Part shown: one piece after another, positions 150-31,381 of the stretch
Position numbering within the stretch: the first letter of the stretch is position 1
Layout of the letters: each line of letters starts with the position of its first letter
Origin: Antedon mediterranea
Lineage: Eukaryota; Echinodermata; Crinoidea; Comatulida; Antedonidae
Direction of reading: 5' to 3'
DNA: 64,000 nt
NCBI RefSeq assembly: GCF_964355755.1
Contig: NC_092671.1
Span: forward strand, 38,891,304-38,955,303
Made by a program: the position numbers and the translations under genes
Notes under the pieces: model-generated
What the model saw: only the letters and a program-made list of their open reading frames with translations
Told to the model about the DNA's origin: nothing
The model's database searches: none

Positions 150-3100
150 CTAGACGTCGTCATCAGTGTTGAGTATTGGTTCAAAAGAGAAAGGACGGAA
201 TGGATGGCCTTCTCCTTTGTAGAATTTGCTCTGGAACTCAACCCTAAAAGAAAAATATTCATTCATATATTGTGTTTTATTTGTGTCTAGAGCAGTGGCA
301 TAACGGCTTTAAGCACTCACTGGCTAAACCCAGGGGCCCGCAGCTTATGGGGGCCCATGAGCAGTGCCCAGAGGGAAAAAAGGCATTAAAACATGTAGAA
401 AAAGGCTAAAAACGCCCCAGGCGCCTCCAGCATTGGGGATTGGGGTGGGGGGGGGGGGGGGGGCTTGGGGTTCCTAATCCAGGGACCTCAGGCCACTGTT
501 TTACAACACTGGTCTAGAACACAATTTATATATTATATGTACTATTATTATTATTATTTGTATGTATAATGGAAATAAATGAAAATAATGTTCTCGACTA
601 AAGTTGTGCAGTTATGTGATGATGTCATGACCCTTTTAGTTGGGATTGTAGTTTAATATTGGAAGTATACAGATTATAAAAGATTATCAAGGATTATTTA
701 AGATTATAAAAAACAATTAAAGATTATACTAAAGCCGATATTCACATTTTATTCCAAAGAAATAAGATAATGTAAAGACTTACCAATGAAGACGAAGAGT
801 ATGCAAGAAGGCAGACAAGCCTTCCATAAATAGTAGAATACCAATGGTAAGCACTGCCCAGAATGCAAACAGCAGGTAAGTGGCAATAGCTCCTATGAAC
901 CCTTCCATTCCAAAGCCCAACGCCAACACCATCGTCCACAGTACCTCTGACAATTCTGTGAAACAAAAATATAGCAATCGGGTTATGATCTGTGATTCGA
1001 AACCTCTACCTAAAAAAAATGGAAGCTCTACTTTTTACCATCACAAAATATTTATTTATGTGGTCAAACATTTTCAGCAGTGGCAAAACTGAGATCCCCG
1101 ATATGTAGGAATACTGGAGGTACTGTAGGATGTGTAAACGATACAGCCATAACGTATTCAATGGTATGGGCTAGGCTAATAACTCATCAGCATGGGCCAT
1201 AGATGTAGATAGGCTGCTGTGTGAGAGATACAACCTAGCTAGGTAATGTACTTGAAAAACCTACCAGCATGAGCAAGGCTGAGAGCCCATAGACGTAGGT
1301 AGGATGCAGTGTGGGAGATGCAGCCTAGACAGTATTCAATGGTGTGGATTCCTTGGTAGATCAAAACCTCGCCAAGTTCAAACTCTTCCTGTTCAGATTC
1401 ATCCGAGCTGGTTGACTGCGATTCATCCAGTTCATCGTGGTGGATTATCTCGGCACTGTCATCGCCGAGTTGCTGCGACTTTGTCATTCTTGCACCCTGG
1501 TATCTTGATGTCTACGGTAAAATGAAGTAATTTATTAATTTAATTTCTATATTTTACATATAGGTGATAGTCTGTACTTACCCACGCAAAGGCACAATGC
1601 TCAGCATCAAACAAAAAAAAATATATAATTGAAGTGCAATACTTTATAAGGCTAGTTAATTTTGAAGTCGCAATACTCACTTGCATTTTTATTCAAAACT
1701 TATTGCCAGGGACACTTAAAGCTCTGTCTACACTATCAAACTTTATGTGACAAAACAATGTGATGTGCCCATATATGATGTCATATCACTACCATATTTG
1801 GGCACATCACCCTTTTTCGTCTAGTTTGATAGTATAGACAGATGAGATAACTTGTTTTGATGGTCACAACATAGACAAATATAAAATTTGGTTGGTAACT
1901 AAAGTTTTTTTACCACAAAATTAATTATCATTATAAGTTTAATTGAAATCTAATGAAACCTTTCCACGAGTCAGTACAGTACATCAATACATTTACAACG
2001 TTTTAAATATATATATATTTAGGCGCAGTGCCAAGAATAGCTATATAAGTTAATTTATTCACCTGTCCAGGTAGCAATCCTGTTCACATACAAACATAAA
2101 TCTACTTGCTATTGTTTCTGGCTTTCACACCAGTCCCACCCTTTCCCACTAATATTCCAAGTTGGACCTGGACTTTCTGCATTTTCACTCTTGAGGACGA
2201 TCAAAGCATATTGATCGAAATGTTGAGAAACTCAACAATTCTATTCAGAACTAATATACGTGGTGTACCGCAAAATTTATATCTACTAACTTACGCAATC
2301 CATCAGCTATACGTCTTTCTTCATTTGTTAATATATTTCTTTAATTTTTATCAATGTAAACTATTCCTCACCTTTACAGGGTGTTTGTAACGCCAATACT
2401 CGACGCCAGGTTTAGCTACTAACAGCCAGGGGACGGCGAGAACGGCTATGACAACCAAGCCGACTTGAACGTAATACTAATGTGACAACAGGGTTAGAAC
2501 AAAGCGTTAGAACACCATGCACTAATATTATTAAAGCAAACAAGTATAGCTATACTACAGTAAAGCTATGCCTACACTTTAAAAAAATGTGACGTGCCCA
2601 TATATGGACATGATGATGTCGTATCACTACCATATTTAGCATATCTCTACCATATTTAGGCACATCACATTTTTTTTGGCAAACTATAGTTTGATAGTGT
2701 AGACAGAGCTTTAGACACAAGATTTTGAAGAGAAACATACACATAAAAAGATCAGCAAATTATACTGCTAGTTCACTACACAAAGAAGAAACAAAAGGCA
2801 ATTTAAAATACAAAAATGATTAGTGTTATTAGTAATATTAGCTGTTTGTTTGTTTGGTTTGTCATCTCATTTTGTTGTTGTGTCGTTCTAAATATAAATT
2901 AGCAAAAGAAGAAATTTTAATTAAAAGTAAACCTGCTAAAGATAGCAGCCAATTAGTTGTATCAAAAACCTACAACAAATATGCAAAGAAAAAGTTTGAT
3001 TATTTCACAATACCCAATGCAAAAAATAGAAAAGTGAAATGTAGTGTGTAGATAAATTCACAACATTCAGTGTGAGGAGTGCATTTTTTTTAGCTTCACA

Positions 3101-6100
3101 ATATACCATGCAACATATAGTAGTGCAAGGAAGTGTTAGATGAAGTGATTCCAATTACCAAAGAAGGTGCAAGCATGCATAATACTGTACCTGTACAAGA
3201 ATGACCTCTGACCCGAGTATACAGCCTCCCTTATTCTTTATTATATGCATGCTTTCTCTAGATAATACTATCTATTAACTTAAGTCTACTACCAGTAGCC
3301 TACCCATTAATTCAACTAAATTCTGCCATTCTACCTCCTGGGTTCAAGTCTTCCACGGTACCAAGACTGTGTCACTACAGAACTTAAAAATCATAACAAA
3401 CCATACACCCCATTGTTTACACTAAATGCTCTCTTATTTCGAATTCGTGGCTTCAAATCTTGCACAATACTGTGCCACTACTTAAGCATCATATTAACTT
3501 AAGTAGCAAGAATCGGTCTCAAGTAAACAAACCACAATTTAAATGATAAATGTGATGAAATGTACCTTCCCGTGAGGTGAGTGATGTTCCCGATATGATA
3601 TAAATGGTTTAGCTAGCAACATCCAGGGCACCGCTAAAACTGCTACGAGAAGAATGAATATTTGAAGACCAAACTGTTCAGGAAAAAAGATTAATAATTA
3701 AATGTTAATCTCTTTGAAATTGTGAAAACTCTTTTTGCACATTTTGGCTCTGACGCTTCACCTGCGGTTAGCTTAGTTTCAGCTGCAAAGGAATGACCGC
3801 ATTAGGTACCAAATGACCGCATTAGGTACCAAATGACTGCATTAGGTACCAAATGACCGCATTAGGTACCAAATGACCGCATTAGGTACCAAATGACCGC
3901 ATTAGGTACCAAATGACCGCATTAGGTACCAAATGACCGCATTAGGTACCAAATGACCGCATTAGGTACCAAATGACCGCATTAGGTACCAAATGACCGC
4001 ATTAGGTACCAAATGACTGAATTAAGTACCAAATGACCGAATTAAGTACCAAGAACTACTATGATGAACTGTAGACAAAATATTATATATTACTTGTCAA
4101 ATAATATATTGGTGAAAATAATTATAATTGCTTTGAAGACTAACCTGTAAAAATATATAATAATTTAAACCAAAACGATACAATAGTTAATCAATATGTC
4201 ACCATTTTGTTTTACTGTAGATAATATAATATTGCATATACCAAATAGAAACACCGGAAATTACATCTTGTAAACACAATTTTAAAAACAAGTTGTGCAC
4301 AGGGTGAAATAAGAAAATTTGGCAAATTTAAATGAATTCTTATAAATATCAAATTTTTTTTACAATAAATTGCTTAAAATAATATATTATAGGTTTTTCA
4401 GTTTTACATTAAATTTAAATTTTATGCAAAATTTATTATTATGATACACAATAACAACTAATTTGTTTTGTATAATAATAAATATTGAGGTATAAGTTTT
4501 AATATGCTTTCTTGGTTCAAATATAAATTATTATCATGTATGGTATGGGATTATACTTAAGCTCTGTCTACACTATCAAACTTTATGTGACTAAAAATGT
4601 GTGGTGCCCATATATGGACATGATGATGTCACATCACTACAATATTTAAGTATATCACTACAATATTTAAGTATATCACTACCATATTTGGGCACATCAC
4701 ACTTTTTTCTTGTCAAACTAGTTTGATAGTGTAAACAGAGCTTTACTCATAAACAGTTTTTAATAACAGCGCCTTACCTGTCCACTGTACATCATGTCTC
4801 CATCTGTCAGTAGGAACATGTTAATCATGGTAATGATTAAGCTGGGAGCCTGTGCAGAGGAATCACCATCATATTTAAACCATTTGAAGATAATGAGAAA
4901 ACACATGTAACCAAAGATAAATGTGAGGAAAATAAACTGTGGGATGAATTCACACCAAATGTTGATGAACTTTCTGAAGTAACTATAAGAGATAAAGAGA
5001 AATAAAACATGTTTTATAATATTAAACAGTTTATTTTTCGTTATGTAGCATAATGAATGTTCACTTTAACTGCTTAAGTAGCATTTGTCATTCGATTGGG
5101 AACTTTTGTAGTCATCATAAAGATTTGTTTTACTTTTTGTTATCAAATGGTAAATTGTAAACAAATTGTGCTCAACAGAAAATCATTTGTATAGAAAACA
5201 TTAACAAAGCAAGCTTTTTCGTTAAGAACAATCTCAACGCTTAAAATACTTGGATAAATAAGTACGCAACGGAAAACTGTACTCAACGGTAATTTACAAA
5301 TCGAATATGACAATTGTTTCAGGGAGTGATGTAAGTTAGATAATTTGCTTTACTTAAAAGAATTGTATTGAATGCTCAGTACATTCAGATCAATAGACTG
5401 GCTTGCGCTGATAGCTAGGGTTAGATATGAGCCCAAGGAATCAGTAAGTACTTCAACAATGCTTGTGAGTTGACCAATCACAAGCGATGGATTATTCAAA
5501 CTCTTGTTTGTCATTGGACAACACGCTTACTTTGCATTTACATCCTTGCGTTGCGTCCTAGTGGGAACCAAGCTTTATGAATCCTTGAGTTGCGTCCTAG
5601 TGGGAACCAAGCTTTATGAATACAAGTGTTTGTATACTTACACATGGTTGAATATACCTAGTATGACACCAAATACCATTTGTGTAACACCAACTATCAC
5701 AGACATCTTCATCTTGTACGAGTTGAGGAAGGTGATCTTATTATTAGATACTTGCCAAATCTAACAAACAAGATATAACATTGAACATAACATAAGTTTT
5801 AATCACCATTGATATTTAATATAAAAACAAAGGTGGACCCATTCAAACAGAGACTCACAAATGATATTTGATTTGTGAGTAAATTGTTGTTTGTGAGCTT
5901 CTTTTTTATTGAAATATTTTATTTATACTGGGCGACCTCTTCAGTCAAAGACTGGTCTCCCAGAGGGCCCAATTATGATCAGTGCCTGTGTGTGTACTAG
6001 TACACTGGGGTAACACACTACTTGTCTCGAATGATGTACTAGGTTCTTTAAAGTGCACAAGAGCCAGATGTGTACAGTTTTTGTACGGTTTATAGTCCTT

Positions 6101-9100
6101 ATCTGAGAAGATTATTTTAAGTTTTTATGTACGTTCTGTTTCTCTACAGGCCTTCTTTAGGATAATGCAGTTAATCAGTATATTAATTTGGAATATATAT
6201 AAATCTCTGTCTACATCATCAAACTAGTTTAAAAAAAAAAAAGTATGATTTGCTCAAATATGGTAGTGATATGCTCAAAGATGGTAGTGATATGACATCA
6301 TCATCTCCATTAATATCACTTTTTTTTGTCATAATAAAGTTTGATAGTGCAGACAGAGCTTTAAAAGTGTCCAATATACTTACTGGATCTAATCCCAAGG
6401 GATAAGGTTCGGCTGAAACGTTCGGATTCAACTGATACATGCCTTCTCCTTTAACGGTTTCATCAAACATGGCCGACACATTCCACTTGGAACCAAATAT
6501 ATTTATAGCTTTTGAAAATATATCATTATAGATGAATCCACAATACATAGCAAAAGCACCCATCAATAAGATGATGTAACGGCCACCAAGAAAAATACCA
6601 AAAACCTGTCAAAGAATAATTAAGAATATTAAAAACCAATGTGTGTTTAGTAGAATCTTACTAGTACAGTAGTACTGAATATCTTTAATTTTTCATTTCT
6701 AGCGAGATTTAGTTTAAATTTTTAATACGGTATATAAAATGTCCAAAACGATAGGACACGCTAAAAATTAAAAATCTATAAAAATACAATTATACAGTAT
6801 ATTACAATTGTTTTCTTAAGTCTTAAAAGTATGAAAATCTTTAATTAAACAGAGAGACACACCATAGGCCCAACACACCAATCTGGGTGAGACATTCAAC
6901 AGTCAAATATTCTCAGACTCAGCCATAGGCAGATCCAAGGTAACCACCCACAAACCAAGGGTTTTTTAGCATTTAATAGGATTTAAACCAAGGGGTATTG
7001 TGAGTAATTACAAATGTTACCTCATCATTTCCGAATGCTTCCTGTAGTTTTCGTTCATTCAACACAAGATACAAGCCAATCAGAAACATGATAAAGCCGT
7101 GACCCAGGTCACCAAACATGACACCAAAAAGGAACGGGAATGTGATGATGGCATATGGAGCTGAGGATAAAGATGAATTTAAATCATAATTATACAAAAG
7201 TATTACCGGCAATTAAAAATGCACAAATTAGAAATGTGATATTCATTTCATTTTACACACATGTTTAAAAGTTTCACAATTTAGAAAAAAACAGATCACA
7301 AAGTAAATGTACAAAAAAAATGGTCCCTGCAGGGACCGTGGTTCTCTTTTATGTGAGGTTTAATCAATACAGGGTTGCCTATTGGTTTTAACATGTTGTT
7401 CTCTTAAAGACACATTAAACCGGAGTGTACAGTACATCTCCCCACCTTCATTTGAATGTGCTCTGTGCATCTCAGTGTTAAACTCTGTCTACACTATCAA
7501 ACTAGTTTGACAAAAAAAGTGTGCGTGTGTCCATATATGGGCATATCACATTTCTTTTGATAGTGTAGACAAGACTTTAGGCTGTTAAAGCCATCTCCAG
7601 ATATATTTATCAGATAGATTTATCTTTGCTAGATAGAATATCAAATCAAACTCCTGCAATTACCTGGATTAACTTCTCTGTAACTTGCAACACCGTATGC
7701 ATCTACTATACTCTGGAATACAGCGGTGAACTTGTTAGTGTTGTTGTAGGTGGGTGGTTGCTCATTAGAGGTCATTTTATTTAGAATCGATGGAACACTG
7801 GAACCACTTTTCTCCTAAAAAAAACAATTTGAAAATCTACGTAAGGAAAAGTGGAGAACATGGTGCCAATCTAATTAAAATTCTATTTTGCGGTTCCCAC
7901 TAGCGACGAAACATAACCTATGAATGTAAGAAAATGTCCTTTCAATAATTGTGTTTGCCTCCGCTTGCGTGAAATCAAACCTGCGATGTTTGCAGCACTG
8001 TTGCGTCGTAGGTTCCCACCTTGCGTCAATACATTGGTACTATAACCACGCTTTAGAGCTACTACGTATAATGTTTTATATTCCAAAAATGGATAACAAA
8101 ACTGAAAATAACACAACACTTACAGTTCCACGTCTTAGAGCAGCTTGTATGTGTTCTAGATCTGCCACGGGACACCAGCACTCGCCAATCAGACACTTCT
8201 GAGTAACATCGAGATTGAACAAGTTAAGGGTGTGGTAGACCGCTTTAAGTTTGCGTACTTTAATGAACCACAGCCGGATGTTACTGGCTGCGGAGTGGAG
8301 TACTCGTTGGCGATGCTCCTCGGTTTGTCCCAATACCTACAAAAGAAAATGTTGATTTGATTGTAGTTTCAACTTTAAGAAATATATGATCATAAAATGT
8401 ACCAAGCACTACACTTCATAGAACTCTGACTGGAGCTACTATATTAAATAATTATACAGTAAACATTTAGGATCCAACAAAGTTTTTAGTGGAGCTGTAG
8501 CTTGGTGGTTAACTAGTTTGCCTTCCAATCCCGAGGTCCAGGGTTCAATCCTGACCTAGTACCAGGGTTGTAATACATGACTCTTTCAACTCCACTCTCT
8601 AAGCCTCAAATGAGACTTAGTTTATAATCATGATAAATTATTAAATAGTTCATCCATCCTGTAGTTGACGAGTTACTGGCTGTTGGATTTGTATGGAATA
8701 AAAAAAAGTGTCTTCTCAATAAGTGTATCCCCTGCATAGGGGTTGGCTGTTAAAACATATATTGCACATTCACAGGAAAGTGTCTCCTTAATAGGGGTGT
8801 CCCAAAAGAGAGGTCCTACTAAAAGACAATTTTGAATAGCTTACTGTGTTAAGATCTTCGATCCTTGTCATAACACCCATTGCCATCTCTCTGCGTTCAC
8901 TTTGCATCTCTGGACATGGGTACAGACTTGCTCGGAATCTAATGCAGAAAATTCAGTGATAGTGTAAATATAATGGTTTTAATGAGTCGCAAAATGTTAT
9001 ATGAGCAACAACCTGACCTCAGTTTAGTATTGTAAAAAACCCTATTAACGGTAACGGTATTAATATTTGTCCTCAAGCTAAACTGGAATCTGAAGAAATT

Positions 9101-12100
9101 CGGATTAGGCCCTCCACGGACCAACAGCAGCCAGCAGTGCAGCGCCTACCAGATCAACACACCGGGAGACGATCCCCTACTCTTTGCAAATAGTGTACCA
9201 AGTTCTTTAATGTGCACTATGTACACGGGACACGGTGGTCTGACAACCACGGTGGCCGTATATAAAAGTAGAAGGGGTTCTACTGAATAGGAGCGTATCC
9301 AAAAAGGCAATAATTACCCTTCACAGATTTTCTTGACTCTGCTCTTGAGCTGTTCACCTTGGAAGAAAATAATGAACACAGATTTGTGCACTTGATCTCC
9401 CTAAAAAAAAAGGAAGAAAAATATTTATTGAAATGTGAAATATTAATTTTTATCTGAAGTCACGACATTTCATGTTGTTTAAAACAACTGTGTTTACAGA
9501 ATTTAAAAACATGTGTCTACTTACCGTAGTTGGATCTTCTAATGGAGCGTCTATTACTGCCTGTCGGAGGAACACGTTACCGTGACATACTCTCCACAAC
9601 ATCTGCTCAAAGGCTGGTATGCGCTCACGGTTGATTACACCTGCCAGGAAGCTACAAATAAAAATATAATTTTGTATTTATTATCTGCATTATTGTGTAT
9701 TTGCATTGCTTAAAAGGTTTCAAATAATTCTTTAAGAACTCCATCTTTTGCAGCGCATGTAATAATAATAATATAATAATAAAATCTTTATTTTAAAATG
9801 GACATTGGTTGTCTTGATCAATTTGTTCGGTTTATTTGGCTTTTTCCTGGTTTATTTAACAATTTAAAACTTTTTTTACACTTGTGTTATACAGCTACAA
9901 CTATTTGCATTTTGTGCTATACAAATTTAAAACCATTAAGCCATTACTCCTAGTGTCAACCATGACACTTGCTCTGCGAAATTTGGAGACACATACTAAT
10001 CATGATTTCAAAGATACAGCCAGCAAACTAATGGCAGCACAAGCATGGAGTTTATCATTCAAAAAAGAATATCATTATTGAGTTAAAATAACGATAGTGA
10101 AACATTTAAGGCAAACTGCCTTAAAATGTGACATGTTTCGAGAAACTTATCATCATCATCAGAACAGAAAACAATGCCTAGAGTACGTATATACCAATAG
10201 GACAGGTTGTATGTAAATGAGGAAGTAATTAGGTCTGCCTATTCATTAAATGTCTCACTATCGTTATTTTAACTCGAAAGTTCGGTGGAATCATTCATGA
10301 TTTATCTAATATCATTATTGTATTACGTATCTGTTGTTAAGTTCTTACCCAAGCCTCATTGGAACACCCTGCCTAGGCCCGTCATCTCCCAGCAGCTTGT
10401 GGTTCTCTTCTTCCCGGTCTGCGTCATGCATCTGCTGGTGATGCAATTCAGCCTAGTAAGTTGAATCGTACATACGAACAACAAATGATCCACAACAACA
10501 GGAGTGCATACCACCACCATGCATGCACGAAACAAATAGGGCGCAAAAAAAGAGATAAAAACACAACACTATTTCATACTACTGTGACAAAAGCAGATGC
10601 AAAAGCTACTACAAATTACGATATTTACATGCAGTGACAACATTCTGGCATGGAACTTGTTTAGTGTTCATTTTAACCAAATTTGTATTTGTTTAGAGCT
10701 CTGTCTACACTATCAAACTAGTTTGACAAAAAAAGTGTGATGTGCCCAAGTATCATAGTGATGACATCATGTCCATATATGGGCACACCCCATTTTGTTG
10801 TCACATAAAGTTTGATAGTGTAGACAGAGCTTAATAATTATGATTATGTTTTTATACAGAACAGTAGCGTAAGTTTTAATGTTCTGCATGTTACAACGGA
10901 CTCAACATTAATTTTAAAACATTGTGTTCTCTTGCCAATATGCCGTCACTGTTTAGCATGATCATGTGACAATATGTAAGGAATTGTGGGATTATATTAC
11001 AATAAAAGTACAGACATTTAGATGAGCTACATTGGTTTAATGATCATAATAATGGGTTACTGTACACTAATAAGGAAATACTACAGTGTAATTACAGCAC
11101 ACTGGAGTGAAGACATAAATTATGAAGAATTAACATTTGACAACATTATGGAGAAATGAAATGATATAAATTCATGGATGGATTCAAGATGGATATTCTG
11201 TATTGAATAATTGATTGATTGATTAATTGATTTGAATGATTGATTTTATTGATTGATTGATGATTGAATGATTTGTTGATTTATTAATTTATTGATTGAT
11301 TGATTTCATTTGAGTGAAGAAAATGCATGGTAGCATTTTTCAGTGGCATAAACATCTTTCTTTATATTCTTTATCAAACTGTTGTCATTAAAATATGTTT
11401 AAAAGAAATGTAAAATAAGTATAAAAAAAACAATAAACAATTAAAATTTTAAACAATAGAAAGTTGGTTGAAACTGCAAAAGTTACATAACAATGTATGA
11501 TTTAGTTAAAAATGTATTTAAAAAATATATCTACATGTAAATATGGTATAATAATAATATAATGTAGATCTATGAAAATAAATTATAATATTAAGTATGA
11601 TAAAGAAGAGGCTACAGTATTAGTCAAATATGAGCAACATAGTGCTACAATATACAGGGAATAGATTATATAACAAGCAAAGTAGAATGTAGTAAGCAAT
11701 GTGTTTCCTATCTGCTAAAAAGTAGATTTTTTTTAATCAAAATTAAATTGGTTTATTTAGTTCTATAAATCTGAGAAAGTGATAAGTTCTTTCTTCGGTT
11801 TTAATCTTTTTTTCAATTATTTCATGTTAATAAATAACTTCATCATTACAGTGAATTTAATATGAAAATATAAATTATAAACTAAAAAGCATGACTTTTA
11901 AAAAATAAAGTAAAACATAGATTTCATGCAAATGATCTGCTTTTTTTTTTTTAGAGATTTTTATAAATTTTAAATATACAAAGTGACAATCATTTTAAAA
12001 TGCGATCACTTTGAAAAATGCTCACTTACATGAACGGACAGAAGGGCTGAGAAGGACGACTAAAGAAGGAAAACGAGGAAGTCTTCAAATGTTATCACTT

Positions 12101-15100
12101 TTTGAAATAATGTGTGTACAATCACAAATATTATAAATTTTAGACAAAAAATAGATTTGTATACAAACACATTAATACTCAAAATTAACATTAAAATTAG
12201 TAGAGTAAGCAAATTATTATATTATATTTTCATAACAATAATTAAAGTGTGATAAATAAATAAATACATAAATATAACTGGTTGATAAAAATAACATAAA
12301 CAGCAACATGCGTAATAACAGGCAAAATATTTGTACTGCCTAAGACTAATTAAAATACACTATTGTATTTTTTGATAATTATACAACTAATTTCTAAATA
12401 TTGCATAGTCATAATTATAATTATTATAACAACAATAAATTTCTAAATATTGTTAGCATGGTGGTGGAAGTTATTGCTTTTCAATTAAATTAAATTAAAT
12501 TTCAATTTCTTTTTATTTCGGAAGTATCCTCCATATTAATAAACTTATAAACAGAAAAAGAAAAATTAAAAACTTAAGTATAAAGAATGCTTCTCCATCT
12601 ACAATACATTTTGGAGTTATGGAGCATGTTTGCAAACACAAGCAACAAGGATGTTACCACTATTCAACATACATTGCATGAAACCATAGGTAGATTTTGT
12701 AATTCAAAAATAAATTTATTTCCAAATGATAGGTTACTGTGTAATCATTTTAGCTACTTAAATTATTTATTACAAATAATTTGCACTGTATACTTCTCAG
12801 TTTTCTTATTTGTCATCTATAAATGTACATTACTGTAAGTGTCAAATTAATTCATATATATGCTGCATACAAAACAAATGGCCTTCAAGCAGTTGTAATT
12901 TATGTGAGATGTCAGATATCATTTATAACAAACATGATGAATTATGTTTAGAGTATGTAGTCTTGTTCATTGCGGTGTTTAGTAGGTTTAAAACATTAAG
13001 TACTACCAGTCATTGTCACTAAAATAGTGGTACTTGATTTAGTCTTCTTAATCTTAGAAGCATTTAGCATTCAATATTTGTTTCATATTGTTTGTTGGGA
13101 ATGTTATTAAAGATGTGTTTTCCCGCGAAAAAATTATTTGTAACAATTTTTTTTTTTTGAATATGTAATTTTAATGTTACATAATAGTTATTCACTTTTA
13201 TAAAAAATTGTATGAAAAAAAAAATATTTACCTTAAAAAACTAAATTTAAAGCAAAAAATAGTCAGATCGGCTGCCAGCCATTGGTTTTTGGTTAAATGT
13301 AACCATTTATTTTGTCTTTTTATAAGTTTATAAGTGAAAACATAATTTTGTGCATTTTTCCCCAGAAAGTGATTAATCTGAATCAAAGCTGCAAAATGGA
13401 CTACTCAAAGTTTATTAATCTTCATTTTTTCATGATTTTGGAGGACAATACATCTTTAACAAAACATATGACTGCATGAGTATGAGATGGAATAACTACA
13501 GGTAGTGCCTTTTGAAAGAAATCTACTAAGTACACAGCAACAAAATCATGTACAGTATGGAACAACAGTGTACAACAAGCATTGCAGCAAAGGACACAAG
13601 TTAGGGGAAATGTGGGTGGCAGAAGGAAAATGGTGTTTTCAAACGTGAAATTTGGGTCGAAGGTCGATTAAAAACTCTAAATAAATATCGATAGATTGAT
13701 AAAATAATAACTAAACAACAATGTTAGCGGAAGGTTTGGAGAAAAAAAGCTTACTATTTAAAAAACTTAAAATGCAAACTTCGGGACGGAAGTAAAATAA
13801 AACTAACTACAGTATTACTAAAATCAAACGCAAGGATTGGAAAAGGAACGAAGGGATTTATTAACTAATAAGGATATGTGAAAAAACAAAAAGGTTTTAA
13901 AATCTATTATAATCCAAAATTTATGTAAGATGTTTATTACCAAGGATATAATTTAAATAAAACTCCAAAAAATGTGGCGTAAATCTTGCCCTCAATTTTT
14001 AAATATCACATGTCCAATGGATTACAATAATTAAAGAAAACCCCATCAAAATTCAACAAACAAAAATATTATTCTTTTTTAAAAAAAACCTTTAGAAACT
14101 TCTAAAAAACCAATAACAATTTAAAATGGTTAAAAAAGATACCAAATAAAATAAATCTAAAGAAAAGGAACGAAATAAACTAAAAACGTAATCATTTAAA
14201 AATACTACCATGAAGCTATGAGCAGTTACAATATCAAACATTAATTGATCTAAGTTGCTCTAAAAACAAATCCAAAATTTATGAGCTATGTATTAGATAA
14301 TGTTGTTAACATCTATTTGGGGGATACAAACAGGACCCAAAAAGTGTCCCTAATAGGAGTGTCCCCTGAATAGGTGTAGTGATGTTGGCTGATTAAGGGT
14401 CGACATTAGAATACATTTAGCACATTGTTTGTTTCACAAGAAACTGTCCCTTTAATAGATGTGTTGCCGGAATAAAGGGTGTGTCTCAAAATTGAGGGGT
14501 TTCTAATGTAAGTATAAAATAACACCTACATGGACTAATTAGAGATGTTTTATCTTTGCATTCATTCCTGTAAATAATTTTAATTACTAACAAAAAATGA
14601 AATTTAAAAAAAATATTTTGATGAAGTTTTCTTTTATAAAATAAATAGCACAATTAGATATAAATAATGTTCACGCACCTCATCAAAGAAATGCTGAGTC
14701 TTGCGCAATATATGCTTCAATTCAGTAAGCTCAAGGAAGTTACGCTTGAGTGCTTCTTGATTCGTGTTCACTTCTTTCATTTCATTCTCAAGTTTCTCAA
14801 AGCATGCCTACAAAATAACATTAATGATGTAATGAATTTTCTAAAAGCTCTGTCTACAATATCAAACTAGTTTGACAAAAAAGTGTAATGTGCCCAAATA
14901 TGGTAGTGATATGCCCAAATGTGGTAGTGATATGACATCATCATGTCCATATATGGGCACATCACATTTTTGTCACATAAAGGCTTTACATTCAACCTTA
15001 TTTTTAATTCAACAGTACTATACTGTTTATGGAGTGCAAATACTATTATGTAAGAATTACTAATTAGTATTTGTCGCATCTCAAGTTCAGATTGGAAATT

Positions 15101-17033
15101 TTAATTGTATTATAAAGTCCACGACTTATTTAATTATCTATCTGTAAGCTGTGTGAGCTACATCTTTTGTAAGTCAAATTACATGCTATAAAAAACTACC
15201 ATGAAATATCATAATTATCATTATCAATGTTGTTACATAATTGTTTAAACGACATTTTTATGGCTTACCTCTAAATCGATCATTTCTCTTGGGATTGGCG
15301 AGTCTGGAACAGAGGGGGGAATGACTATTGGTATACCAGCACGCTGGATTTCCTTTTCAAGGAAACCTGAAAAGATGATATTATATTTAAATTTATAAAT
15401 AATATGTAATGTTAACATCTTTTACATTACAAAAACGTTAAAAAAGAACTTATTATTTATTTCAATTCAATTCATTCTTCATTTTTTACATGAACAATAA
15501 AACATACATAAAATACACATTCCCGGGGAATCCAACAGAGAACTTCTAACTTTGACTTCATTTATTTAAACCATGGATATTAATATTATGAACTTCCCTA
15601 TATCTCTATGTTTGAATTATCATACAAGGCTTATTACTAATATGTATTGTAACAAAATTGTATTAGTCTTGGGAGATATATACTATACACTATTAATTGT
15701 AATTTGCTTTCGGTTGTAACCACATTGATTTATTTCTGATTCATTTCAATTAAATAATCCTCATTATTGCCACCCCTATGAAAGAATGGAATAAGCCCAC
15801 ATTAATATTATGCAAAGCATAGTATTGATTTTGACTTTAAATGCGTGGGATATTAGACAGCAAGGATATATTTCAAGATTATAATTAATACACATTGATA
15901 AAACCAGCATACCTTTACTTGGTAAATCAATTGCATTGAAATTCAAACCTTAAAAGTGTGATTTAAATAAATTATTTATATTTTTATTATATATACTTTA
16001 GTTATATCTGCATACTGTATACAATATGAACTTTGGTCTGATAAACCAATGTTATTCATACAGACACCAGCAAAAATTACAACTGAGTTTGCTGGTATGA
16101 CCTGGTTACAGATAAGATGAATACTTGAATGATACTGATATAAAAGGAAGGCTAGCAAATGCAGATAAGACTAGATTAAATTTGTCAACATTATATACTA
16201 TAGTAGTACTGTATTCTCTAAAGCAGTGCAATAGGTTACAGTACTTTTTACTACATATTTATGAGGAGGCGTGTGGGGTGTTGACAAGGGCTAAAGCTCT
16301 TTCTACACTATCAAACTAGTTTAACAAAAAAGTGTGAAATGCTTAAATATGGTTGTGATCATCATGTCCATATATGGGCACATCACATTTTTTTTCACAT
16401 AAAGTTTGATAGTGTAGACAGAGCTTTAAAGACCCCTACCTTTTTTAGATCTAATTTAAGGTCACAAACTACAATATTATATGGTCGCATTGCGCACGGA
16501 TTGATATTTTTGTTTTTCTTCTGTTATTCACCCACTTTTCGATCGAAGACACAATCTTTGGAAAGAATTTGTAGAATAAAAATAACAATTTTAGTTTGAC
16601 ATACGTAGTTTTCTTTCCATCTCGTCGCATCGTCTAACCTCATTCACAAATTTCCTTTGGAACGCATTTACATCTGGATTAAGCTAGAAGAATAATCAAA
16701 TCAAAAATACTTAAAATATTAATGTTTAATAAATTATATAGTTTTACGCTCAGATTCAAATTGTAAAGTTAGTAATATAAATTCAAACATTTTTCCAAGA
16801 CTTAAATATTTGGGATACATAGAATAATAGAAACAGCACAGAGATAAATTACAAATAAATTATACTTATAGGAAATACAATTTTAAATTAAAATGTGTCT
16901 TTTTGTATTTACTTACATCTCTAAACTGCACCAATCCAAGCTCTCCAAGCTCTGCGACACATGCATAAGCTGCCTCTGATTGGAGGAACAGCTGTGCAAG
17001 GGTCATCTCCTCACTTCTGAACAACGACCCCAT
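150..17033 (-). CDS. ATP6V0A1: V-type H+-ATPase subunit a, copy 1 (spliced)
   Basis: This is the large membrane subunit of the V-ATPase V0 sector, which forms the proton half-channels against the c-ring and tethers the V1 stator. Exons in transcript order (+ coordinates): 16917-17033, 16605-16683, 15269-15366, 14679-14807, 10349-10452, 9525-9651, 9318-9400, 8845-8938, 8124-8336, 7664-7814, 7021-7160, 6384-6605, 5642-5760, 4778-4982, then 3566-3673 or 2378-2476, then 1265-1511, 784-955, 150-243. All junctions are GT-AG and phases agree. The product is 830 or 833 residues, the family's usual length. The N-terminus [20 protein letters not shown], the segment [20 protein letters not shown] and the helix [12 protein letters not shown] are hallmark subunit a motifs. 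Arg in YLRLW (about residue 733) corresponds to the arginine essential for proton transport in yeast Vph1. Relative to copy 2 there are two extra introns (after FRD and after CEG) and one fewer (before FELGE). Confidence 0.95.
1140..1232 (-). pseudogene. Decayed partial copy of the proton-path exon
   Basis: Downstream of the real exon 1265-1511 in transcript direction lies a diverged copy of its last ~75 bases. The sequence for [12 protein letters not shown]-like text is recognisable (ctctcacac, gcctatctac, atctatggcc, catgctg) but with many substitutions. It has no own acceptor and is read as intron. Copy 2 carries a similar, better-preserved array. Confidence 0.65.
1717..1843 (-). mobile_element. 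Palindromic MITE, copy
   Basis: Ends aagctctgtctacactatca and tttgatagtatagacaga. The inner asymmetry shows the reverse orientation. It lies in the V-ATPase copy 1 intron before exon 16. Confidence 0.85.
2378..2476 (-). other. Alternative exon 15b of V-ATPase subunit a copy 1
   Basis: This 99-base exon has both junctions in phase 0. It encodes [20 protein letters not shown] followed by [13 protein letters not shown], covering a late transmembrane helix and the start of the following loop. The exon at 3566-3673 encodes the same segment with different sequence, and a protein with both would carry the helix twice. This version is closer to the single exon used by copy 2 (YEVQVALVVIAVLCIPWMLL). 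The acceptor (ending ttag) and the donor GTAAAG are both acceptable. I infer mutually exclusive use. Confidence 0.85.
2563..2713 (-). mobile_element. Palindromic MITE, copy
   Basis: The left end is altered (agctatgcctacacttt); the right end tttgatagtgtagacagagc is intact. It lies 87 bases from alternative exon 15b. Confidence 0.85.
3566..3673 (-). other. Alternative exon 15a of V-ATPase subunit a copy 1
   Basis: This 108-base exon, phase 0 on both sides, encodes [20 protein letters not shown] followed by [16 protein letters not shown]. It matches the same helix as exon 15b, sharing the core AVLAVPWxLxAKP, but differs in the flanks and loop. The donor is GTACAT. The acceptor follows a short pyrimidine tract interrupted by purines. 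It lies upstream of 15b in the transcript, about 1.1 kb away. Confidence 0.85.
3788..4056. repeat. 20-base minisatellite
   Basis: About 13 head-to-tail units of attaggtaccaaatgaccgc lie between exon 4778-4982 and alternative exon 15a of V-ATPase copy 1. Only the last units vary (actga, attaagtacc), which indicates recent homogenisation. Confidence 0.95.
4558..4744 (-). mobile_element. Palindromic MITE, copy
   Basis: Full copy with three repeats of the inner catatttaagtatatcact type motif. It lies about 34 bases downstream (transcript direction) of exon 4778-4982. Confidence 0.85.
5543..5620. repeat. ~38-base tandem duplication
   Basis: The text gttgcgtcctagtgggaacc and aagctttatgaat occurs twice in a row, ending 20 bases from exon 5642-5760 of V-ATPase copy 1. 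Confidence 0.85.
5925..6110 (+). repeat. Dispersed repeat family A
   Basis: Text such as actggtctcccagag, gtactagtacactggggt and taggttctttaaagtgcac recurs inverted at 31870-32040 and partly at 34045-34105, so this is an interspersed element of unknown class. Confidence 0.6.
6200..6363 (+). mobile_element. Palindromic MITE, copy
   Basis: Ends tctctgtctacatcatcaaa and tttgatagtgcagacagagc. It begins 20 bases from the donor of exon 6384-6605; copy 2 has a MITE in the equivalent intron. Confidence 0.85.
7481..7579 (+). mobile_element. Palindromic MITE, internally deleted copy
   Basis: About 99 bases, with both terminal repeats but most of the centre missing. Confidence 0.8.
8489..8640 (+). mobile_element. 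tRNA-derived SINE, copy 1
   Basis: Box A-like gtagcttggtgg and box B ggttcaatcc are spaced as in a tRNA. The anticodon-arm text tgccttccaa resembles tRNA-Gly(TCC). The body continues with ctagtaccagggttgtaa and ends tcaaatgagacttagttt. It lies in the V-ATPase copy 1 intron between exons 8845-8938 and 8124-8336. Confidence 0.75.
9020..9260. repeat. Dispersed repeat family B
   Basis: Shares ggattaggccctc, gggagacgat and agtgtaccaagttctttaa with 32850-33020. Intronic in V-ATPase copy 1. Confidence 0.6.
10080..10275. mobile_element. 196-bp MITE with ~30-bp terminal inverted repeats
   Basis: The left end GAGTTAAAATAACGATAGTG and the right end CACTATCGTTATTTTAACTC are exact inverses over 20 bases, continuing with one mismatch into ACATTTAA. 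It lies in V-ATPase copy 1 between exons 10349-10452 and 9525-9651. No open frame. Confidence 0.8.
10694..10832 (+). mobile_element. Palindromic MITE, representative full copy
   Basis: Used here as the reference copy: terminal repeat agctctgtctacactatcaa, then actagtttgac and an A-run, gtgtgatgtgcccaa, an inner tatcatagtgatgacatcat, then tccatatatgggcacaccc, a T-rich stretch, cacataaag and tttgatagtgtagacagagc. The two halves are near-complementary, so single-stranded DNA or RNA would fold into a long hairpin. It has no coding capacity, and the flanks suggest a TA or TTAA target. Confidence 0.9.
11205..11310. repeat. TTGA-type simple repeat
   Basis: An impure (ttga)n/(attgattg)n tract inside the largest intron of V-ATPase copy 1. 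Confidence 0.85.
12030..12059 (-). other. Candidate 30-base cassette microexon, V-ATPase copy 1
   Basis: Inside the 4.2-kb intron between exons 14679-14807 and 10349-10452 there is a short open segment encoding [10 protein letters not shown]. It is flanked by a CTTTAG acceptor and a strong GTAAGT donor. It is phase 0 on both sides, as is the host junction, so inclusion would add ten residues without a frameshift after FFDE, in the variable loop of the cytosolic domain. Supporting evidence is only splice-site quality and frame. Confidence 0.4.
14843..14988 (+). mobile_element. Palindromic MITE, right end truncated
   Basis: The left terminal repeat is intact (agctctgtctacaatatcaa); the right end stops at cacataaaggcttta. 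It is in the V-ATPase copy 1 intron equivalent to the copy 2 intron with the MITE at 19272. Confidence 0.8.
16291..16428 (+). mobile_element. Palindromic MITE, copy
   Basis: Full copy in the intron between exons 16605-16683 and 15269-15366 of V-ATPase copy 1. The equivalent copy 2 intron holds the MITE at 18931. Confidence 0.85.

Positions 17034-18538: not shown

Positions 18539-31381
<12,843 letters not shown>

Follow-up and report, generated by a model that had tools for sequence, protein, structure and literature searches.

The first of two neighbouring V-ATPase subunit a genes in the crinoid Antedon mediterranea (copy 1) contains two homologous exons, A and B, which encode the same part of the protein, helix 6 of its eight membrane helices. 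We consider it highly likely that A and B form a tandem-duplicated, mutually exclusive pair, of which one member is used in each copy 1 transcript. Each transcript would then join the exon that ends at 4778 through A or B to the one that starts at 1511, and the result would be two full-length isoforms differing in helix 6 and in the first 12-13 residues of the cytosolic loop between helices 6 and 7. Both exons, on the minus strand, and both flanking junctions had been proposed in an earlier note on this DNA and were recovered here. Positions are those of the window, i.e., the whole stretch of 64,000 nucleotides that was analysed (contig NC_092671.1, 38,891,304 to 38,955,303, assembly GCF_964355755.1), and the features are listed in Table 1. 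Several observations weigh against the mutually exclusive reading and are given below with the evidence to which they belong: a reading frame that also allows double inclusion and double skipping, the poor acceptor of B and the weak donor of A, a Pfam search that returned A without B, codon agreement between A and B that is higher at third than at first positions, and an excess of UGCAUG motifs that is modest.

Table 1. Features of the two subunit a genes and of the helix 6 exon pair (positions within the window)
Feature	Position	Strand	Description
Copy 1, V-ATPase subunit a gene	150..17033	-	First ATG to stop; ends by eye; some N-terminal exons unmodelled
Copy 2, head-to-head paralogue of copy 1	18539..31381	+	First ATG to stop; ends by eye
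Exon upstream of the pair	4778..4982	-	Helix 5 and lumenal loop; ends ...GDMMYSGQ
Exon A, upstream alternative	3566..3673	-	108 nt, 36 aa, phase 0; helix 6 and start of the cytosolic 6-7 loop; homologous region in human a1
A-B intron	2477..3565	-	1089 nt; holds the sole UGCAUG motifs among the three introns around the pair
Exon B, downstream alternative	2372..2476	-	105 nt, 35 aa, phase 0; 99 nt if the donor at 2378 is used
Exon downstream of the pair	1265..1511	-	Acidic cytosolic 6-7 loop and start of helix 7; starts TSRYQGAR...
Single helix 6 exon of the paralogue (copy 2)	26873..26992	+	120 nt

Copy 1 is a member of the V-ATPase subunit a family: matches to PF01496 above the cut-off run along the gene, eight membrane helices were counted by eye when the exon translations were set against the accessible portion of PMC10352029, and helix 7 carries the conserved arginine in a 15-residue segment aligned to human a1. 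A Pfam search of the 354 Mb genome, in which 55 of 62 candidates were scored and which works on single exons and may overlook weak matches, gave 26 PF01496 exon matches for the two genes (23 above the curated cut-off), all within the window, and these two are the only subunit a genes found in the genome. Exon A appeared in this exon-by-exon search with 28.4 bits, below the cut-off, and neither exon B nor the helix 6 exon of the paralogue was in its output.

The two gene copies are far apart at the nucleotide level, with 33 of 129 fourfold sites identical in ten exon pairs (the helix 7 pair omitted), which is near saturation. An early N-terminal segment (16606-16683 in copy 1, 18656-18733 in copy 2) encodes 26 of 26 identical residues while only one of its seven fourfold sites is the same, so that selection, not recent conversion, appears to account for its conservation. 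By contrast with those ten exon pairs, the helix 7 segment (1263-1337 and 29884-29958) is the same in both copies at 72 of 75 nt and at 15 of 17 fourfold sites (Fisher 8e-7), and this near-identity suggests a recent gene conversion at the helix 7 exon. In copy 2, the 3' part of that exon and its donor are tandemly repeated (29887-30354; 4.8 copies of 97 nt, 90% match), which provides a row of preformed donors after the genuine one. The next intron of copy 1 holds what appears by eye to be a degenerate repeat of the helix 7 segment (1162-1236). When 17 exons of copy 1 were queried in the right frame (some N-terminal ones omitted), no second copy of any of the others was found except these helix 7 repeats.

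The resemblance of A and B is well beyond that expected by chance. All open AG...GT stretches in the window within 6 aa of the length of A were scored for their similarity to it, expressed as a fraction of the self-score, giving 681 candidates with A included (plus strand, 383; minus strand, 298). Exon B reached 0.398 (0.377 with its shorter end) and the exon of the paralogue 0.319, and the next, unrelated candidate reached only 0.037. In 200 first-order Markov simulations of the three introns, the best resemblance to A was 0.073, and tblastn of A against B returned an E-value of 8e-8. Each of the two exons has a single DNA match in the genome. The two peptides have in common the core AVLAVPWxLxAKP, and the mean hydrophobicity of their helices over 19 residues (2.55 and 2.53) is close to that of human a1 (2.56). 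The same candidate scoring in the window, together with tblastn, revealed no second version of helix 6 in the paralogue beyond 26873-26992, in line with the single version that had been ascribed to it.

These features are those by which mutually exclusive exons have been predicted elsewhere. The WebScipio procedure, according to the accessible part of PMC3228551, allows a length difference of up to 20 aa, applied a score limit of 0.15 in its scan, and asks for the same frame and splice type; there, among 16,180 neighbouring exons outside the mutually exclusive class, just 90 showed the same features. Exons A and B differ by 1 aa in length, score 0.40 (with gap penalties of our own), and have the same frame and splice type, so that they agree with exons of this class in length, frame, splice type and homology, with exclusivity in the present case being predicted. 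A third alternative exon was considered in the A-B intron, where an open stretch of 35 aa (2862-2969) follows a strong acceptor (10.3 on an older matrix, since replaced). This stretch is partly hydrophobic, to a lesser degree than the pair (1.63), and ends in TGA. No likeness to A or B was visible by eye, the genome contains a single DNA match to it, and we took it for a chance occurrence, the other reading being an alternative terminal exon.

Both exons are in phase 0 at each end, as the earlier note had stated, and are bounded by GT-AG introns. Its start for exon B, at 2476, was confirmed; its end, at 2378, gives way to 2372, where the donor AAG|GTGAGG scores 7.4 vs 5.7 for CCT|GTAAAG at 2378. 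Because both ends keep the frame, a 6-nt tandem donor in exon B is possible. The translations with A, with B, with the short form of B, with A and B together and with neither are all free of stops and in frame. Thus, the shared phase, which had been put forward together with the expectation of one exon per transcript, carries no weight for that expectation, since double inclusion and double skipping would stay in frame as well.

The splice sites were scored with a matrix derived from the two genes themselves (28 donors and 30 acceptors, one ambiguous donor at 14670 being left out). Exon A has a fair acceptor, at 4.8, with five of the 30 acceptors scoring lower. Its donor is weak, at 3.4: two of the 28 donors score lower, and 15% of the GTs in the window reach that score. 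In exon B it is the donor that is good, at 7.4 (above 12 of the 28), and the acceptor that is very weak, at -6.3: one of the 30 lies below it, and 67% of the AGs in the window are at least equal. An alternative hypothesis is that one of the two exons, more probably B, is a decaying or rarely used remnant of an old duplication, with the other being constitutive. The poor acceptor of B would fit such a remnant, as would its absence from the Pfam output and the lower score of isoform B against solved structures (see below). However, exon B is free of stops and in frame, has a good donor, and keeps its helix and the VPW/KP core intact. Its protein sequence also seems to have been kept while the codons changed: within the first 24 residues, B is identical to the exon of the paralogue at 16 positions (to A at 12), and ten of those 16 residues use different codons. 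In addition, the only helix 6 exon of the paralogue has an acceptor even poorer than that of B (-7.2; 0 of 30 lower). Decay of one exon is thus unlikely on our assessment, and we retain the mutually exclusive pair as the preferred explanation.

Alignment to solved structures places both exons at the same site of the protein. The query containing A aligns to residues 627-749 of human a1 (ATP6V0A1; PDB 6wlw chain R), the query containing B does likewise, and the helix is ungapped in the printed alignments; the helix 6 region itself corresponds to chain residues 633-662, over 30 residues of which A has 15 identities to human a1, B 14 and the exon of the paralogue 13. At E <= 0.001, the two isoforms retrieve an identical set of 23 sequences from solved structures, many of them being one protein deposited repeatedly; 21 of the 23 are long enough to include helix 6. 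Isoform A outscores isoform B against each of these 21 (125.2 vs 115.4 bits for human a1). From the order of the exons and a count by eye, the A/B segment is the sixth of eight helices and leads into the long acidic cytosolic 6-7 loop. Helix 6 runs here from the lumen to the cytosol.

The number of helices bears directly on whether A and B could be spliced in series. In the portion of PMC10352029 available to us, subunit a is described as having eight helices, with the essential arginines on helices 7 and 8. Two helix 6 segments in series would, on topological grounds, invert helices 7 and 8, which makes double inclusion implausible, and it is mainly because a second helix would turn these two the wrong way round that one exon per transcript is expected. 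The structural logic of the earlier note is therefore upheld. A transcript containing both exons, which would be open and in frame, would give nine membrane segments or a longer re-entrant region. We regard this as very improbable, as the extra helix would be predicted to reverse the helices that bear the essential arginines, the isoforms with a single exon align to human a1 without a gap inside the helix, and a product including both unc-32 exons 7a and 7b was not detected in C. elegans, according to the accessible text of PMC3585155.

The same structural work affects what the exon choice may do. As described in the accessible portion of PMC10352029, helices 3-6 form a central layer, and the hemichannels are built from helices 4, 5, 7 and 8 together with loops of helices 3, 4, 7 and 8. 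Helix 6 is not counted among the walls of the proton path in that portion, so that the suggestion that the splice choice would retune a loop next to the path of the c-ring is weaker than it had been put. Exchanging A and B would more plausibly act on the packing of helices, contact with partners, assembly or sorting than on the path of the protons.

Concentrating on how the choice between the exons may be made, three possible causes of exclusivity can be set aside. Steric hindrance is ruled out by the length of the A-B intron; U2/U12 incompatibility is ruled out by the ordinary GT-AG sites, among which no U12-like donor was seen by eye; and decay of frame-shifted transcripts is ruled out as an enforcer by the open frames of all four combinations (A, B, both and neither). 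Exclusivity must consequently come from regulated splicing. Trans-acting splicing regulators would enforce the use of one exon per transcript, their choice lying between exon A, whose acceptor is fair and donor weak, and exon B, whose acceptor is weak and donor good.

Pairing between intron RNAs was also weighed as an enforcer. A palindromic, short transposon-like element with arms AAGCTCTGTCTACACTATCAAACT is abundant here, with 64 arm-like matches (at most 3 errors) in 64 kb, and copies lie, for example, at 4559-4743, 2559-2713 and 1717-1842. One copy in each intron could allow competing RNA pairings, and one arm of the middle copy (2672-2714) could indeed pair over 42 nt, at 83% complementarity, with arms on either side: 4556-4597, upstream of A, and 1717-1758, downstream of B. 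However, when 3,321 nt were folded with a partition function, the six examined arm stretches formed local hairpins, with 0.0 expected pairs (to one decimal) between copies, and the element is so common in the window that one copy per intron is unremarkable. Such a switch is not supported, the local hairpins winning in the folding, and we hold it to be very unlikely. As a separate observation, the intron that immediately precedes the helix 6 exon carries short tandem arrays in each gene copy, with differing units, by eye at about 3795-4035 (unit about GGTACCTAATGCGGTCATTT) and about 26210-26630 (unit about AATCCCATAACCGAGTGT).

For the regulated use of A and B, the A-B intron offers one candidate signal. 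It contains three UGCAUG motifs (first bases 3179, 3112 and 2521), one of them 45 nt upstream of B, and none occurs in the two outer introns around the pair. The excess is modest (P 0.022 in simulations and 0.009 from the rate in the window), as at least three occur in 2.1% of 1089-nt windows here, UGCAUG ranks eighth among hexamers occurring at least three times, and four lie in a 4.2-kb span elsewhere in copy 1 (14669-10453). The motifs are thus a weak hint, drawn from the intron sequence, of a regulatory signal. An RBFOX-like RRM is encoded in the genome, split over two exons on C1 (identity to the query sequence: 96% in 24 residues, 69% in 42). Speculatively, an RBFOX-type factor acting on UGCAUG in the A-B intron might favour A and hold back B, by analogy with RBFOX and UNC-75, which favour unc-32 exon 7a in worm neurons.

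Precedents exist for the predicted arrangement of A and B, in other genes as well as in a V-ATPase gene of a worm. According to the accessible text of PMC3585155, the neuronal choice of exon 7a in C. elegans unc-32 depends on UGCAUG, which lies in intron 7b, and on UNC-75 sites, which lie in intron 7a, and a later RNA-seq study (PMC12084633, likewise available in part) agrees that the upstream exon is the neuronal one. As far as those texts describe it, unc-32 resembles copy 1 in the protein family, in the presence of two exons with one per transcript (predicted in the crinoid), in a UGCAUG in a neighbouring intron, and in the favouring of the upstream exon by RBFOX and UNC-75, where the same preference is guessed here. 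The position of UGCAUG differs, being downstream of 7b in the worm and between A and B here, with none after B. The unc-32-type layout, with UGCAUG after the second exon and a UUGUUGUG-type element between the exons, is accordingly not that of the crinoid gene. The full UNC-75-type element, TTGTTGTG, does not occur in the three introns around the pair; shorter pieces of it are present (TGTTGTG at 3065 and 1871, TTGTTGT at 2978).

In human a1, we know of no second version of helix 6. The cassette exon of a1 has 172 nt and is not described as a duplicated exon in the available part of PMC2941758. Among the titles and beginnings of abstracts covered, which included few subscription papers, none was found that named a duplicated subunit a exon other than that of unc-32.

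The divergence of the two peptides suggests that the A/B pair is old. Of eight fourfold sites compared between A and B, four are identical, and the number of sites is too small for dating. Across the 24 leading codons, the agreement between A and B is 0.58 at third and 0.50 at first positions, a pattern at odds with plain purifying selection in this small sample. Among 30 aligned residues, counted by eye, B and the paralogue alone agree at seven, A and B alone at four, and A and the paralogue alone at three. These informative residues form a mosaic, with those uniting B and the paralogue grouped near the start and those uniting A and B further on, and are compatible with either order of the exon duplication and the gene duplication. 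A bolder hypothesis is that A and B are the same ancient helix 6 pair as unc-32 7a and 7b, which split before the two gene copies diverged and was later lost from copy 2; the bilaterian ancestor would then already have had a neuronal isoform of the V-ATPase membrane arm under RBFOX control. We consider this history rather unlikely.

If the exons are transcribed as predicted, A. mediterranea would obtain three versions of subunit a from two genes, since only two subunit a genes were found and splicing would add the third. Helix 6 would then represent a natural swap experiment in a proton pump, in which a central helix and the start of the following loop are exchanged while the rest of the subunit is unchanged. 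The pair would also provide a further case for comparison with unc-32, whose exon choice is strongly tissue-specific.
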